From the NCBI GenBank assembly GCA_017303795.1, contig JAFLBR010000001.1:186001-250000 (forward strand): DNA of 64,000 nt, given 5' to 3'. The notes beneath the pieces were generated by a model. That model was not told the DNA's origin. It did no database searches and saw nothing but the letters and a program-made list of their open reading frames with translations. Numbering within the stretch: position 1 is the first letter of the stretch; each line of letters begins with the position of its first letter. This DNA comes from Cytophagales bacterium. GTDB taxonomy: Bacteria > Bacteroidota > Bacteroidia > Cytophagales > Cyclobacteriaceae. Below, piece by piece: positions 15,467 to 40,769 of the stretch. A program made the translations under genes and the position numbers.

Positions 15467-16363
15467 ATGACAGTTGCATGGCAAGGCATTTACCCGGCTC
15501 TCACCACCAAATTTACTTCTGACGATAAGTTAGATTTTCCATTGTTTGAAAAAAACCTAAAGGCTCAGCTTGATGCGGGTGTAGAAGGTGTGATTCTCGG
15601 TGGCACGTTAGGTGAAGCCAGCGTGTTAAGTAATGATGAGAAGTTTGAATTGGTGCGCTTTACGGTAGAGAAGGTGGCAGGTAAAGTACCTGTAGTAATG
15701 AACATAGCCGAAGGCAGTACCCGCGAAGCGTTGAAGCAGGCTGCTGAAGCAGAGAAGAATGGGGCCTCTGGTTTAATGATGTTGCCGCCCATGCGCTATA
15801 AGTCCGATCACCGCGAAACGGTTACGTATTTCAAAACCGTGGCTCAGTCAACCAGTTTGCCGATTATGATTTACAACAATCCGGTTGATTACAAAATAGA
15901 AGTAACACTGGATATGTTTGCCGAACTGGCCGAGGTAAAAAACATACAAGCTGTGAAGGAATCGACCCGCGATGTAAGCAACGTTACCCGTATGATCAAT
16001 CGCTTCGGTGATCGGTTTAAAATTCTTTGTGGTGTGGATACCATTACCATGGAAGAGTTGATGTTGGGAGCAAGTGGTGTTGTAGCCGGTTTGGTTTGTG
16101 CTTTCCCGAAAGAAACCGTTGCCATCTATAAACTTACAAAAGCTGGTAAAATTGAAGAAGCATTAAAGATCTATCGATGGTTTTTACCCTTGCTGGAATT
16201 AGATATTCATCCCAAGCTTGTTCAGTATATTAAACTGGCCGAACAAGAAGTTGGCCTCGGTTCTGAAATTGTGCGCGCACCCCGCTTAACATTAGAAGGC
16301 GAGGAGCGGGAACGAATTTTGAAAATTATTCGTCAGGGTATAGCGACCAGGCCTGTTTTATAG
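15467..16363 (+). CDS. DapA-family lyase, probable 1-pyrroline-4-hydroxy-2-carboxylate deaminase
   Basis: A 298-residue class I aldolase of the dihydrodipicolinate synthase family. It shows GGTLGEAS (phosphate-loop-like motif), MIYNNPVDY with the catalytic Tyr (near residue 135) and QAVKESTRD with the Schiff-base Lys (near 163). In hydroxyproline degradation a member of this family deaminates and dehydrates pyrroline-hydroxy-carboxylate to 2-oxoglutarate semialdehyde. The three following genes encode exactly the other steps, which makes this assignment more likely than lysine biosynthesis. It is the first gene of the operon. Confidence 0.88.
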   Translation: MTVAWQGIYPALTTKFTSDDKLDFPLFEKNLKAQLDAGVEGVILGGTLGEASVLSNDEKFELVRFTVEKVAGKVPVVMNIAEGSTREALKQAAEAEKNGASGLMMLPPMRYKSDHRETVTYFKTVAQSTSLPIMIYNNPVDYKIEVTLDMFAELAEVKNIQAVKESTRDVSNVTRMINRFGDRFKILCGVDTITMEELMLGASGVVAGLVCAFPKETVAIYKLTKAGKIEEALKIYRWFLPLLELDIHPKLVQYIKLAEQEVGLGSEIVRAPRLTLEGEERERILKIIRQGIATRPVL

Positions 16364-16451
16364 TTTCTGGTCGCTGGTTACTGGTCTCTGGTAAGTTACA
16401 CCAAGCAAACCAGTAGCCAGCAACCAGAAGCCAGTAACTAGCAACCAGCAA
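16364..16451. repeat. inverted heptamer array 1 (YNNCTGG / CCAGNNR units)
   Basis: Four head-to-tail 7-bp units ending in CTGG occupy 16364-16391 (TTTCTGG, TCGCTGG, TTACTGG, TCTCTGG). After an 18-base spacer, six units of the reverse-complement type follow at 16410-16451 (CCAGTAG, CCAGCAA, CCAGAAG, CCAGTAA, CTAGCAA, CCAGCAA). The arms can fold into a long imperfect hairpin. The array begins at the base after the stop codon of the deaminase and ends 13 bases before the next ATG. Confidence 0.9.
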
Positions 16452-16464
16452 CAAAAAATTGAAC

Positions 16465-17934
16465 ATGATAAATAATCCAACAGAAGAAGTTAACCGAGTC
16501 CTACAACAAGCTCACGTTGCCTTTCTATCGTATAAAAATTTTTCCGGCAAACAGAAAGCCGCATTTCTGCGAGCTATTGCTGATGAGATTGAAGCTTTGG
16601 GTGCTGAGTTAGTAAGCACGGCTATGCGCGAAACCAATTTGCCGGAAGCGCGCATCATCAATGAGCGCGGTCGCACTACCGGTCATTGTCGCATGTTTGC
16701 TGATTTGGTAGAAGAAGGTTCGTGGGTGGAGGCACGCGTGGATACCGCCTTACCTAACCGCATACCGGCACCTAAGCCCGATATGCGAAAAATGTTAGTA
16801 CCCATCGGGCCAGTGGTGGTATTTGGTGCGGCTAACTTTCCGTTGGCCTATTCAACTGCCGGTGGCGATACCGCTTCTGCTTTGGCAGCAGGTTGTCCGG
16901 TAATTGTAAAAGCTCATCCTGCTCATTTAGAAACTTCAAAGTTAGTAGCTGCTGCAATCGAAAAGGCGGCTGCTAAAACCGGCATGCCGCAAGGTGTATT
17001 TCAACATGTGCATGGCGAAGGTTTTGAGATTGGGCAGGCATTGGTAAAACATCCATTTACCAAAGCTGTTGGATTTACAGGTTCATTGGTCGGAGGCAAA
17101 GCGCTGTTCGATCTTGCCAATCAACGCCCCGAACCGATTCCTGTTTTTGCAGAAATGAGTAGCATCAATCCTGTCATCTTATTACCTGAAACGCTTTCGC
17201 GCGATGCAGCAAAAACAGCAAGCCAGTTGGCCGGATCAATTACCTTGGGTGTAGGTCAGTTTTGTACTAACCCCGGTTTGATAATCGCTATTGATGATGC
17301 AGCACTTGCTTCATTCATCGCCACACTCGTAACCGAAATAGAAAAATCATTACCCGGCACTATGTTGCATCAAGGTATTGCTGATAATTATGCCAAGCGA
17401 CTTACTCAAACGCTTGCGCAGAAAGGGGTGAAGGCGGAGGGCCAATCTGCAAATGGAAACGCGGCACAAGGAACTCCCTTGGTAGCTTCAGTAGCTGCAG
17501 AAACTTTTCTTCAGAATCCAACTTTGTCAGAAGAAGTGTTTGGTCCGTTTTCACTGATTGTAAAATGTAAAGACACTAACGAATTACACCAGGTGATTAC
17601 TAAAAGTCACGGCCAGTTAACGGCTACTATTATTGGCGATGAGGCTGAGATCAGCAAACACAAAGTCCTGATTAATATGTTAATCGAGAAAGCGGGTCGG
17701 TTAATTATAAATGGAGTGCCTACGGGTGTAGAAGTTTGTCCGGCCCAAATGCATGGTGGTCCCTATCCTGCTACAACCGATTCGCGTTTTACCGCAGTGG
17801 GCACCGATGCCATCAAACGATTTGTTCGCCCGGTGACGTTTCAGAATTTTCCCGAATCATTATTACCAACAGAATTGAAAACTGAAAACCCGTTGGGGAT
17901 TTGGAGACTATTTAACAATGAACAAAAAAAGTAA
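16465..17934 (+). CDS. aldehyde dehydrogenase, probable 2-oxoglutarate semialdehyde dehydrogenase
   Basis: This protein of about 489 residues is an NAD(P)-dependent aldehyde dehydrogenase. It shows GPVVVFGAANFPLAYSTAGG and the cofactor-binding segment GGDTASALAAGCPVIVKAHPAH. FTGSLVGGKALFDLA, the general-base Glu in FAEMSSINPV and the catalytic Cys in GVGQFCTNPGL are also present. It matches the subfamily that oxidises 2,5-dioxopentanoate to 2-oxoglutarate, the last step of hydroxyproline catabolism. I prefer the ATG at 16465 to the TTG two codons earlier. It is second in the operon, bounded on both sides by heptamer arrays, and its stop codon lies inside the first unit of the next array. Confidence 0.9.
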   Translation: MINNPTEEVNRVLQQAHVAFLSYKNFSGKQKAAFLRAIADEIEALGAELVSTAMRETNLPEARIINERGRTTGHCRMFADLVEEGSWVEARVDTALPNRIPAPKPDMRKMLVPIGPVVVFGAANFPLAYSTAGGDTASALAAGCPVIVKAHPAHLETSKLVAAAIEKAAAKTGMPQGVFQHVHGEGFEIGQALVKHPFTKAVGFTGSLVGGKALFDLANQRPEPIPVFAEMSSINPVILLPETLSRDAAKTASQLAGSITLGVGQFCTNPGLIIAIDDAALASFIATLVTEIEKSLPGTMLHQGIADNYAKRLTQTLAQKGVKAEGQSANGNAAQGTPLVASVAAETFLQNPTLSEEVFGPFSLIVKCKDTNELHQVITKSHGQLTATIIGDEAEISKHKVLINMLIEKAGRLIINGVPTGVEVCPAQMHGGPYPATTDSRFTAVGTDAIKRFVRPVTFQNFPESLLPTELKTENPLGIWRLFNNEQKK

Positions 17935-18006
17935 TCAGTAAGCAGTAATCAGTTGGCAGGTCTAAAAACTAACTGCTTACTGAATGCTGCTTACCGCTTA
18001 CTATTG
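17930..18006. repeat. inverted heptamer array 2 (AGTAATC / ACTGCTT units)
   Basis: Four 7-bp units run from 17930 to 17957 (AGTAATC, AGTAAGC, AGTAATC, AGTTGGC). Five units of the opposite type run from 17972 to 18006 (ACTGCTT, ACTGAAT, GCTGCTT, ACCGCTT, ACTATTG). The period is 7 in both arms, which can pair. The preceding stop codon is in the first unit and the epimerase ATG is 6 bases after the last. The core differs from array 1 (CAGTAA rather than CCAG), but the architecture is the same. Confidence 0.85.
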
Positions 18007-18012
18007 ATTACG

Positions 18013-19014
18013 ATGATACACACTTTCAAATGCATAGATGCACACACGTGCGGTAATCCGGTTCGGGTGGTGGCAGAAGGCGGCCCGCAACTGATTGGTA
18101 ACAACATGAGCGAGAAGCGGCAACATTTTCTACGCGAGTTCGATTGGATTCGTAAAGGGTTGATGTTTGAACCGCGTGGCCACGATATGATGAGTGGCAG
18201 CATTTTGTATCCACCATCCGATCCGGCTAACGATGTTGGCGTTTTGTTTATTGAAACCAGTGGTTGTTTACCCATGTGTGGTCACGGAACTATTGGTACC
18301 GTTACCATTGCCATTGAAGAAGGATTGGTGAAGCCTAAAACCCCAGGCGTACTAAACTTAGAAGTTCCGGCAGGATTAGTACGCATTGAATACAAACAAG
18401 AAGGCAACAAAGTAAAATCCGTAAAAATCCGGAATGTAAAAGCCTACCTCGCAGCCGAAAATCTTACAGTTGATTGTCCTGATCTGGGTGAACTCACATT
18501 GGATGTTTCGTATGGCGGAAATTTTTATGCGATTGTAGATGTGCAGAAAAATTTTCCAGGCTTAGAACATTACACTGCCGATCAGTTGATTAGTTGGAGT
18601 AGAGCGTTACGCAAAAATATTAATGCGAAATATACATTTGTACATCCGGATAACCCCACTATAAATGGGTGTAGTCATATTCTATGGACAGGTAAAGTAA
18701 TTGATCCAGCTTCTACTGCACGCAATGCGGTGTTCTATGGCGATAAAGCGATTGATCGCTCACCTTGCGGAACAGGAACATCTGCACGTCTAGCACAATG
18801 GTATGCCAAAGGCAAGCTGCGCAAGGGTGAAGACTTTATTCACGAAAGTATAATTGGTTCAAAGTTTATCGGGCGCATAGAAGAAGAAACGGATTTGCAC
18901 GGTAAGCCTGCTATTATTCCGAGCGTAGAAGGGTGGGCAAAAATCTACGGCCATAATAACATTACAATCGATGCTGATGATGATCCGTATGCGTATGGGT
19001 TTCAGGTTATATAG
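18013..19014 (+). CDS. 4-hydroxyproline epimerase (proline racemase family)
   Basis: Starting from the ATG at 18013, the 333-residue protein opens with HTFKCIDAHTCGNPVRVV, characteristic of proline racemase-family enzymes. Both catalytic cysteines are present, in LPMCGHGTIG and in RSPCGTGTSARLA. Together they interconvert trans-4-hydroxy-L-proline and cis-4-hydroxy-D-proline. The open frame extends 20 codons upstream, but that extension is translated heptamer repeat and is not credible. The pairing with a D-amino-acid dehydrogenase, a DapA-type deaminase and a semialdehyde dehydrogenase supports hydroxyproline rather than proline as substrate. Confidence 0.93.
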   Translation: MIHTFKCIDAHTCGNPVRVVAEGGPQLIGNNMSEKRQHFLREFDWIRKGLMFEPRGHDMMSGSILYPPSDPANDVGVLFIETSGCLPMCGHGTIGTVTIAIEEGLVKPKTPGVLNLEVPAGLVRIEYKQEGNKVKSVKIRNVKAYLAAENLTVDCPDLGELTLDVSYGGNFYAIVDVQKNFPGLEHYTADQLISWSRALRKNINAKYTFVHPDNPTINGCSHILWTGKVIDPASTARNAVFYGDKAIDRSPCGTGTSARLAQWYAKGKLRKGEDFIHESIIGSKFIGRIEEETDLHGKPAIIPSVEGWAKIYGHNNITIDADDDPYAYGFQVI

Positions 19015-19018
19015 TTAG

Positions 19019-19229
19019 TTGCTGGTCGCTGGCTACTCGTTACTGGTTCCTAGTCCCTGGCTACTGGTTTGATTAGACTAAATGATTGGACATGAGTTAT
19101 AAAAATATTGAGATTTGGCAGGAAGCTAGAGAACGACTTGGTAAAAAGTTAAACTTCAATAAAGCAATCGAAAAAGAATAATTAAAATTAATCTAACAAG
19201 CGACCAGAAGCCAGAGACCAGTAACCAGC
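19019..19229. repeat. inverted heptamer array 3 enclosing a gene remnant
   Basis: Seven CTGG-type 7-bp units at 19019-19067 (TTGCTGG, TCGCTGG, CTACTCG, TTACTGG, TTCCTAG, TCCCTGG, CTACTGG) face the opposite-type units CCAGAAG, CCAGAGA, CCAGTAA and CCAGC at 19204-19229. About 130 bp lies between the arms, including a 30-codon reading frame described separately. The left arm starts four bases after the epimerase stop, and the right arm runs directly into the next ATG. Confidence 0.88.
19092..19181 (+). pseudogene. probable internally deleted four-helix-bundle (S23/IVP-like) gene
   Basis: A 29-residue frame. Its first half (SYKNIEIWQEAR) resembles the conserved start of Bacteroidota four-helix-bundle proteins related to the 23S rRNA intervening-sequence protein. 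Its second half (RLGKKLNFNKAIEKE) resembles their C-terminal helix. The intact family is about 120 residues, so this looks like a copy that lost its middle and kept both ends. It sits between the two arms of heptamer array 3. Recognition is from memory of the family and rests on short segments. Confidence 0.45.
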
Positions 19230-20474
19230 ATGAAAGTAGCAATAATAGGAGGCGGTATTATCGGGTTAAGTTCTGCGTATTACCTGAACAAAGCCGGACA
19301 TGAAGTAACGGTTATCGATAAAGGCGATTTATCGGATGGTTGTTCGCATGGCAATGCCGGTATGATTGTGCCGAGTCATATCATTCCATTAGCGGCACCG
19401 GGCATGATTGCCAAAGGCATTCGCTGGATGTTTAACTCAACCAGTCCGTTTTATGTAAAGCCAAGATTAACCCTCGACTTACTGCGATGGGGATTTCAGT
19501 TTTATAAACATGCCAACGAACGGCATGTACAAGCAGCAATACCGGCTTTGAAAGAGTTGAGTTTATACAGTAAGACTCAATATCAACAACTCGCTACTGA
19601 ATTGCCTTTTGATTTTGGTTATGCCGAGCGCGGACTATTAATGTTGTATCAAACTGCAGAGACAGAACACGAAGAAGCAGAGACTGCCGCTATTGCCAAT
19701 GCACATGGTGTAAAGGCACAGATACTTTCCGCAGCAGAAGTGCAGCAACTGGAACCGAATGTAAAAGTCACCGCGCGCGGTGCAGTTTATTTTCCTGGCG
19801 ATGCACACCTCATACCACAAAATCTAATGAGTCAACTTATTCCGTATCTGAAAAAGAAAGGCGTAAGTTTTATAACCAATACACCGGTAGATGATTTTTC
19901 AGTAATTAATGGAGAAATTAATTCTGTAAGAACAGCAGCAGGTGAACATCATTTTGATGAAGTAGTACTGGCGAGTGGCTCGTGGTCGGGTACGGTTGCA
20001 AAACGTTTGGGCATTACATTACCCATGCAAGGCGGCAAGGGTTATAGTTTTTTACTGAAAGGAGTAGAAAAAAATATTCGCATACCTTCCATTTTTTTAG
20101 AAGCACGCGTGGCGGTAACTCCTATGGGGAACGATCTTCGCTTTGGTGGAACGATGGAGATTGCCGGAACCGATCAGCGCATTAGTATGAATCGGGTGAA
20201 AGGAATTGTGGATGCGATACCACGTTATTATCCGGAAATGAAAGTAGCGTTACCAAAAGTAGAACAGGTGTGGCATGGGTTGCGACCTTGCTCACCCGAT
20301 GGGTTACCTTATATTGGTCGCTCTCAAAAAATCAGCAACTTGATTTTTGCTACCGGTCATGCTATGATGGGTTTGAGTCTTGGACCAGGAACCGGTAAAA
20401 TTGTTGCGGATGTGTTTTCAGGGAAGCAAACTGAAGTACAATTGAAAGCTTTTAATCCGGAGCGATTTGCTTAA
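19230..20474 (+). CDS. FAD-dependent D-amino-acid dehydrogenase, probable D-hydroxyproline dehydrogenase
   Basis: A 414-residue DadA-type flavoprotein with the FAD-binding Rossmann motif IIGGGIIGLSSAYYL at the extreme N-terminus, then SDGCSHGNAGMIVPSHIIPL. The C-terminal flavin-contact region is HGLRPCSPDGLPYIGR with ATGHAMMGLSLGPGTGK. Context makes it the oxidase for cis-4-hydroxy-D-proline, giving pyrroline-4-hydroxy-2-carboxylate for the DapA-type enzyme. Electrons presumably go to the respiratory chain. It is the last gene of the operon and overlaps the convergent transporter gene by four bases. Confidence 0.9.
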   Translation: MKVAIIGGGIIGLSSAYYLNKAGHEVTVIDKGDLSDGCSHGNAGMIVPSHIIPLAAPGMIAKGIRWMFNSTSPFYVKPRLTLDLLRWGFQFYKHANERHVQAAIPALKELSLYSKTQYQQLATELPFDFGYAERGLLMLYQTAETEHEEAETAAIANAHGVKAQILSAAEVQQLEPNVKVTARGAVYFPGDAHLIPQNLMSQLIPYLKKKGVSFITNTPVDDFSVINGEINSVRTAAGEHHFDEVVLASGSWSGTVAKRLGITLPMQGGKGYSFLLKGVEKNIRIPSIFLEARVAVTPMGNDLRFGGTMEIAGTDQRISMNRVKGIVDAIPRYYPEMKVALPKVEQVWHGLRPCSPDGLPYIGRSQKISNLIFATGHAMMGLSLGPGTGKIVADVFSGKQTEVQLKAFNPERFA

Positions 20475-40695: not shown

Positions 40696-40700
40696 AAGCC

Positions 40701-40735
40701 GTTACCAGTTACCTGTTTCTGGTTTCCAGTTGGTA
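40701..40735. repeat. single-arm heptamer array 4 (GTTNCCA units)
   Basis: Five 7-bp units follow the PorP/SprF stop: GTTACCA, GTTACCT, GTTTCTG, GTTTCCA, GTTGGTA. The period and the TTACCAG/TTTCTGG cores match the arrays in the hydroxyproline operon, but no opposing arm is present. Confidence 0.7.
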
Positions 40736-40769
40736 GTTTAAAGAATTTATTAGGCAAAACATTTTATGT

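Follow-up and report, generated by a model that had tools for sequence, protein, structure and literature searches.

Why should three successive gaps in one catabolic operon each be filled by an inverted array of 7-bp repeats? The question is raised by a stretch of 64,000 nucleotides from a Cytophagales bacterium of the Cyclobacteriaceae (assembly GCA_017303795.1, contig JAFLBR010000001.1, positions 186,001 to 250,000), referred to here as the window. Its hydroxyproline operon, at positions 15467-20474, encodes a DHDPS-family enzyme, an aldehyde dehydrogenase (ALDH), a proline racemase/hydroxyproline epimerase and a DAO oxidoreductase according to Pfam, and these families are compatible with the enzyme names given in a first-pass annotation of this DNA. 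The gaps after the first three genes (gaps 1, 2 and 3) are 101 (16364-16464), 78 (17935-18012) and 215 bases long (19015-19229), as that annotation had stated. We suggest, with a probability of about 0.74, that the sequences filling these gaps are copies of a mobile element which have lost its open reading frame (ORF) or have decayed, and that the full element carries a gene of the S23p family, i.e., the protein of 23S rRNA intervening sequences (IVSs), PF05635, also designated 23S_rRNA_IVP or TIGR02436.

Heptamer arrays in the hydroxyproline operon

All three gaps contain head-to-tail heptamers in two opposed arms, and in all three the left arm starts at most 10 bases from the stop codon; both features had been described before. 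The gaps had also been said to consist almost wholly of heptamers, which is not correct for gap 3: its arms account for only ~80 of its 215 bases, with ~130 non-heptamer bases between them. Gaps 1 and 3 are of the CTGGNNN class, whereas gap 2 is of a CAGTNNN class. Gaps 1 and 3 also contain a common spacer motif, CTGGTTTGATTGGAGTA, with two mismatches each and in opposite orientations.

The middle of gap 3 is occupied by a 29-codon ORF in the sense of the operon, which starts MSYKNIEIWQEARE. When compared with a hidden Markov model (HMM) of S23p proteins built here, it aligned with positions 2-15, the N-terminus of the family, at 8.5 bits (best stretch 8.7). Only 2 of 20,000 shuffles reached this score, and scores of the remaining listed frames of gap 3 were below 0. 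With Pfam alone, this very short piece had no PF05635 match up to an E value of 1. The alignment suggests that the ORF resembles the start of an S23p/four-helix-bundle protein (PF05635), and gap 3 reads as an internally deleted S23p element in which the first codons of the gene may be preserved. Thus, gap 3 has a candidate remnant of an S23p-type ORF between its arms, and gaps 1 and 2 have none.

Arrays of this kind are not confined to the operon. The contig (680,028 bases, 14% of the genome; genes were called in scripts as longest ORFs) has 12 inverted period-7 arrays with at least 7 copies, compared with 0, 2, 1, 1, 0 and 0 arrays for periods 5, 6, 8, 9, 10 and 11, and the gap fills are far above chance on this contig. 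At a laxer cut-off of 5 copies period 7 does not stand out (34 arrays; periods 6 and 9 have 53 and 34). A list restricted to arrays of at least 6 copies with arms no more than 700 bases apart has 14 entries, 11 of which have 7 copies or more. As judged by eye from this list, ten of these 11 are intergenic, three of them being the operon gaps, and all ten start no more than ~10 bases from the stop codon of the upstream gene. The flanking genes are co-directional in nine cases and convergent in one; because 415 of the 574 adjacent gene pairs on the contig are co-directional, this alone is no strong signal, and it is the flush fit that is. Stop-flush placement is therefore not particular to the hydroxyproline operon, and the random placement between genes that had been considered as a possible outcome is not seen on this contig.

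S23p genes between inverted arrays

The genome has four PF05635 genes, all of which have heptamer runs on both sides, with a different heptamer in each case (the runs are weak at one locus, L010). We extended the analysis to 62 loci of the family and the phylum, each the best-scoring match of its genome. Among lags 2-15, self-similarity of the flanks peaked at lags 7 and 14 alone, and a control stretch 800 bp upstream of the same loci had no such peak. In 36 of the 62 loci the same tandem 4-mer core occurred upstream and, reverse-complemented, downstream, versus 7.7 expected from mispaired loci, an expectation that is inflated here and below by heptamers common to loci; other periods gave 0-4. 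An independent named set comprised the best 80 of 588 matches, with two loci unusable and phylum labels taken from record titles. It had the shared core in 42 of 62 Bacteroidota loci (10.9 expected) and in 12 of 16 loci with other titles (1.7 expected). Since best-scoring matches were taken, these sets lean to intact genes.

The 12 positives with other titles include Thiobacillus, Planctomycetes, Anaerolineaceae, Sulfurovum and Syntrophus. The proteins of the Limnohabitans (L288, among the 12) and Bifidobacterium (L234, outside them) records fall with those of Bacteroidota; these records may be contaminant bins. An archaeal locus of ANME-1 (L257) has facing heptamers by eye and is not among the 12. 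On viral contigs the core was shared in 15 of 23 loci (2.5 expected); these loci represent 19 distinct proteins, 14 of them among the positives, and the IMG/VR contigs may contain host DNA. Ten of 29 plasmid matches were taken, eight of them cyanobacterial, and six passed (2.8 expected), all cyanobacterial. A search of phage records with one S23p protein yielded no match. In one of the plasmids, from Nostoc edaphicum (L325), an S23p element with GGGAGTA arrays lies antisense between two ribonucleotide reductase subunit genes.

Among 143 non-duplicate loci with sufficient flanking sequence, the two arms were complementary, with a score of at least 14, in 106; of as many control pairs taken 500-700 bp off, only 2 were. 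Left arms are G-rich and C-poor, with G exceeding C in 100 of 112 loci and C exceeding G in 8. Gene and arms are inherited together: over the 112 loci arm similarity tracked protein identity (rho 0.24, permutation maximum 0.12), and arm 5-mers in common fell from 0.85 at more than 85% protein identity to 0.06 at 40-45%. Because arm similarity follows protein identity, the heptamer is not set by a common recognition sequence. What recurs across elements is the period, the opposed arms and the polarity. The period itself is not always 7, since the left flank of one S23p gene (L069) consists of 16 successive 8-bp units, AACTGGTC. The S23p fold has already been solved (structures 2gsc and 2rld).

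Empty, solo and full sites in relatives

A comparison of the operon with close relatives, which the first-pass annotation had suggested, revealed one genome of the same genus (G209) with 8 bases at the gap 1 junction and 4 at the gap 3 junction, and no arrays there. Gap 2 is not comparable in this genome because another gene stands between the ALDH and epimerase genes. A second genome of the genus (G017) has a CAGT-class array related to gap 2 at the ALDH-epimerase junction, and its other two operon junctions hold further coding sequence.

A junction that occurs in three states is that between fadB and a thiolase gene, for which 30 loci were obtained from 40 matches in 41 genomes. Twelve have a full element, two a solo array by test and ten a short gap of 2-52 bases without array; the rest comprise three longer gaps without array by test and three loci in no class. 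One of the longer gaps (L142, in G017) appears by eye to be a decayed array. The empty, solo-array and full-element states occur in different genera. In a quick tree of 119 columns the S23p proteins of the fad site do not form one clade, with 8 changes over 18 rows, which is below the shuffle mean of 12.6. Concerted arm turnover at a single inherited fad element was also considered and was set aside, as the tree scatters the fad-site proteins. Since these proteins sit in several places in the tree, repeated insertion fits the fad junction better.

Dispersed copies without gene were also found. The spacer motif had 43 matches in this genome, versus 7 for a reversed control. Fourteen were inspected, and seven of them (L191-L194, L199, L200 and L216) lie in CTGG arrays, with 0-3 mismatches to the motif; the other seven (L195-L198, L201, L207 and L208) have no array around it, and two further copies occur in L110. 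Three solo arrays of a TAGT class have 27 of 106, 40 of 85 and 47 of 102 7-mers in common with the arms of L009, a full S23p element of this genome, where the background is ~1 per 100-base window. In six other arrays, the three gaps among them, the number is 0-5. At one orthologous intergenic site in two species of the genus (L191, G000:C10:13512, and L346, G220:C12:624276) the flanks align and the spacer of the CTGG array is inverted.

It could be argued that none of this requires movement, if palindromes grew locally at stop/start junctions, through slippage in replication and through template switching, and S23p genes were captured or preserved by them. Heptamer copy number does vary at orthologous sites, long arrays exist (20 successive CYCAATA copies adjoin a CTGG array at L104:4471-4610, G000:C8), and a DNA-level process would fit the missing wobble bias described below. 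We nevertheless regard such local growth as quite unlikely, as it leaves unexplained the period of 7, the presence of one protein family in the middle of the arrays across phyla, and a non-repeat spacer common to dispersed copies. Repeated insertion of one element family, which had been offered as one explanation of the gaps, is instead supported by the short gaps in relatives, the three-state junction, the common spacer and the link to S23p.

Upstream of the epimerase gene, arrays of another period also occur in the same kind of place: 11-bp units of the TATTTCAACCG type with facing GAAATA runs (L125 and L126, and more weakly L128, L134 and L136). The features of the window are collected in Table 1.

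Table 1. Operon genes, array parts and a further heptamer run in the window (positions counted from its first base)
Feature	Position	Strand	Support
DHDPS family gene (hydroxyproline pathway deaminase-like), upstream of gap 1	15467..16363	+	PF00701, E 2e-62
Gap 1 left arm, CTGGNNN heptamers, 4 cores	16364..16391	+	
Gap 1 spacer motif CTGGTTTGCTTGGTGTA, CTGG family, antisense to operon	16397..16413	-	2 mismatches vs family motif
Gap 1 right arm, CCAGNNN heptamers, 6 cores, end 13 bases 5' of ATG 16465	16410..16451	+	
ALDH gene	16465..17934	+	PF00171
Gap 2 left arm, CAGTNNN heptamers, 5, overlaps ALDH stop codon	17929..17960	+	
Gap 2 right arm, ACTGNNN heptamers, 5	17972..18003	+	
Proline racemase/hydroxyproline epimerase gene	18013..19014	+	PF05544, E 2e-129
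Gap 3 left arm, CTGGNNN heptamers, 7 cores	19016..19067	+	
Gap 3 spacer motif CTGGTTTGATTAGACTA, sense	19064..19080	+	2 mismatches vs family motif
Gap 3 candidate remnant ORF, 29 codons, S23p N-terminus-like	19092..19181	+	S23p HMM built here, 8.5 bits
Gap 3 right arm, CCAGNNN heptamers, 5, abuts ATG	19197..19228	+	
DAO-family oxidoreductase gene	19230..20474	+	PF01266, E 1e-74
One-armed heptamer run directly 3' of PorP/SprF gene stop, possibly a decayed copy	40696..40740	+	

RNA hairpins or a DNA-level process

The other explanation offered for the gaps was that they fold into hairpins which tune translation or mRNA stability. In this case, the arms would act as transcribed intercistronic elements that set the stability of the mRNA or the translation of the next gene, and selection would maintain their complementarity. 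The predicted folds of gaps 1-3 are strong (-41, -29 and -56 kcal/mol, raw energies), placement is mostly co-directional and stop-to-start, and the same function has been proposed in print, in the accessible part of PMC2670836, for hairpin repeats between hupS and hupL in cyanobacteria. If the arms were selected as RNA, an excess of G-U over A-C pairs would be expected on the sense strand. Among 264 transition-type mismatches between paired arms of the 112 loci, 115 were G-U and 149 were A-C; the G-U share was 0.44 (interval 0.37-0.50), with p 0.04 in the direction opposite to RNA selection. In a first set of 50 loci the counts were 43 and 59. This asymmetry lends no support to selection for an RNA hairpin, and because there is no G-U excess it is more likely that the arms are kept alike by a DNA-level process or are recognized as DNA. 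In addition, relatives of the same genus and of the same family lack arrays at the same junctions and vary in which junctions have them, the spacers of gaps 1 and 3 are oppositely oriented, and the spacer of one site is inverted between two species. Thus, a regulatory role of the hairpins is unlikely, and of the two earlier explanations insertion is supported here and regulation is not. It is possible that RNA processing is a side effect of the arrays, or that they have an incidental effect on expression.

We also considered whether the arrays might serve as stop cassettes for all frames, as left arms are rich in TAG, TGA and TAA. The CTGG arms are not, by eye, and this idea was rejected.

Placement of S23p genes and nested copies

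Placement was counted for 165 S23p loci, six of which have duplicate proteins. Both neighbors lie in the direction of the S23p gene in 101 loci, and both are opposed to it, the host pair still being co-directional, in 15. Convergent pairs account for 17 loci and divergent pairs for 3. Of the rest, 6 loci are nested within a host ORF, 15 are at contig edges, and in 8 a neighbor is more than 400 bp off. For the 101 loci the median distances are 51 bases between the upstream stop and the start of the S23p gene and 41 between its stop and the start that follows. This sense bias may come from nothing more than the requirement that the gene be expressed. Among the short CTGG copies, that of gap 1 is antisense.

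S23p might also be a cellular regulator, with the arrays as operator or autoregulatory RNA sites that were copied along with the gene. The joint inheritance of gene and arms and the prevalence of the host operon sense (101 of 116 co-directional cases) are consistent with this. Such a role is very improbable given the patchy presence of S23p genes (52 of 60 family genomes have 1-12 copies and 8 have none), the solo arrays without gene and the nested copies in unrelated host genes.

At the six nested loci (L045, L060, L068, L255, L310 and L317) a long host ORF surrounds the S23p gene and is open across the whole element, always in the +2 frame. This frame has no stops in the six and a median of 10, never 0, in the other 159 loci, and the +1 frame of the nested loci has 4-18 stops. 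When codon order was shuffled, the frame stayed open in 8, 17, 328, 1, 18 and 0 of 2000 trials for the six loci in the above order; L068 is weak by itself because it is GC-rich, with 328 open shuffles. Four of the hosts are DNA methylases; the other two are a HisKA/HATPase protein and a DNA polymerase III alpha. In the polymerase the insert falls between residues 579 and 582 of chain 5fku_A, corresponding to 590 and 787 in the query. Three of the six loci have tandem-7 cores common to both flanks. All six belong to one group of 22 proteins in the quick tree (support 84), together with 16 non-nested ones. As the host frame is open, the nested inserts would seem to be translated rather than spliced out, and these S23p genes represent apparent dual coding with the host gene.

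Relation to known repeats and intervening sequences

STRRs (short tandemly repeated repetitive sequences) of cyanobacteria have, to our knowledge, been unexplained since about 1990. The original papers on STRRs and IVSs are said to be those of Mazel (1990) and of Ralph and McClelland (1993), and an STRR was reportedly found by Vioque (1997) in the RNase P RNA gene. REPIN/RAYT systems and miniature inverted-repeat transposable elements (MITEs) are short, non-autonomous intergenic palindromes with a rarer gene-bearing partner; their ends are defined by sequence, and their transposases are of known chemistry. The copies described here are likewise palindromic with a rarer gene-bearing partner, but their end sequence is free and their protein is a four-helix bundle (PF05635/TIGR02436). 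As to ends shared with a gene-bearing element of the same genome, the three TAGT solo arrays have 7-mers in common with the arms of L009, and the three gaps of the window do not (0, 2 and 0).

The S23p element is akin to the rRNA IVSs of Coxiella, Leptospira and others, with the same protein family, inverted repeats, ORF decay and a similar size (428 nt in Coxiella; accessible part of PMC4990558). According to the same part, the S23p ORF of the IVS in the Coxiella 23S rRNA gene is preceded by 2-3 tandem copies of the heptamer GACAGAT, in a number that varies between strains, and the IVS is excised by RNase III; the heptamers are mentioned there upstream of the ORF alone. Known IVSs lie inside rRNA and are cut by RNase III, whereas the arrays described here have heptamers at both ends and lie between protein genes of an operon; there was no Rfam match at the gathering score in positions 14000-42000 of the window.

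Cyanobacterial STRRs are probably akin as well. They are usually 7-bp hairpin repeats between genes, e.g., hupS and hupL, with no function assigned (accessible part of PMC2670836), and the gaps of the window also contain tandem 7-bp units, hairpin-capable and intergenic. The first-pass annotation, which knew of no description of such gene-by-gene placement, thus went too far, as hairpins between hupS and hupL and the same guess about their function are in print there. The host of the window is not cyanobacterial, and among named records those with the closest S23p proteins belong to Bacteroidota. The STRR texts found, as far as accessible, draw no link to S23p, yet S23p genes of cyanobacterial plasmids lie between such arrays.

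Other systems are more distant. TAACTGA heptamer repeats of Beggiatoaceae are intergenic, near start codons and also present in five Bacteroidetes (accessible part of PMC4679880); unlike the present arrays they consist of one fixed heptamer, direct and not inverted, and the words "four helix" are absent from that part. Avd, the accessory protein of diversity-generating retroelements, is stated to be homologous to the S23p four-helix-bundle family (accessible part of PMC10053308). The Avd model NF033474 matched three of five S23p proteins with 24.8, 43.9 and 16.5 bits, all below its equivalog cut-off of 80, and the other two had no match. IVP genes in rRNA insertions of candidate phyla radiation (CPR) bacteria and 18 S23p genes in cas loci, the latter reported as having a CRISPR-associated function, are described without heptamer arms in the accessible parts of PMC11270868 and PMC3936711, respectively. 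In our set, two cyanobacterial S23p genes lie between cas6 and cas4. A literature search by title and start of abstract, covering journals largely outside subscription, found nothing that brings together S23p genes, two-armed heptamer arrays and operon junctions.

A model of the S23p element

We propose that the S23p element is a selfish element of ~400-700 bp, as estimated from gap lengths at the fadB-thiolase junction. In order from the left it would have an arm of tandem 7-bp units, a short spacer, the S23p gene and a second arm reverse-complementary to the first. On this view gap 3 would be an internally deleted copy, and gaps 1 and 2 solo arrays. An S23p oligomer may recognize the folded arms by their period and complementarity rather than by a fixed sequence, and may recruit a copying activity, supplied by the host or by some other element, that inserts new copies. 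Copies would survive only where translation is unbroken, i.e., in stop-start gaps, in structured RNA genes (the IVSs) and in genes whose frame stays open through the element. Slippage and template switching along the hairpin may keep the arms alike, and the hairpins of the hydroxyproline operon would be mostly passengers.

Several observations weigh against this proposal. The alignment of the gap 3 remnant covers only 14 residues, and gaps 1 and 2 are tied to S23p solely by architecture and placement; gaps 1, 2 and 3 share 0, 2 and 0 7-mers with the arms of L009. A CTGG element with an intact gene was sought at 12 loci of the genus with the CTGG motif, four with a CTGG array and eight without by eye, and none had an S23p match. 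General library scans gave no enzymatic domain for S23p, and none was sought beside the gene. At the threshold used, 39 of 151 non-duplicate loci lack an arm alignment, with 112 passing. In a Pseudanabaena plasmid (L327), an S23p gene between cas6 and cas4 has long AAAAGCT/AAAAGCC arrays on both sides that are direct, not inverted. Moreover, five of six S23p proteins at an lpd site form one clade in the quick tree (96), with arms that have a GTAC core by eye, and the flanks of solo CTGG sites align between species, so that part of the distribution is due to descent. Movement of the S23p element is inferred from comparisons of sequences, and these suggest that both repeated insertion and descent have occurred.

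The insertion reading is supported far beyond the hydroxyproline operon. More tentatively, and at odds that we would place just short of even, there may be one mobile class across bacteria, and probably archaea and viruses, whose lineage-specific heptamer ends are recognized by period and self-complementarity and which is moved with a non-enzymatic S23p oligomer. STRRs and 23S rRNA IVSs would be remnants of this class, and some members, in the 22-protein group, would be dual-coding inside host genes, with S23p in one frame and the host enzyme (DNA methylases, histidine kinase, DNA polymerase III alpha) read through in +2.

Such a class would join three loose ends: the cyanobacterial STRRs, the S23p protein of rRNA IVSs, and the unexplained S23p genes of operons, e.g., in cas loci. 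If it is real, S23p would gain a testable substrate, its own arms. Gene context would then be no guide to the function of S23p, and the arrays would serve as markers of insertion. The nested copies would represent a natural case of a mobile gene that is dual-coded with a host gene.

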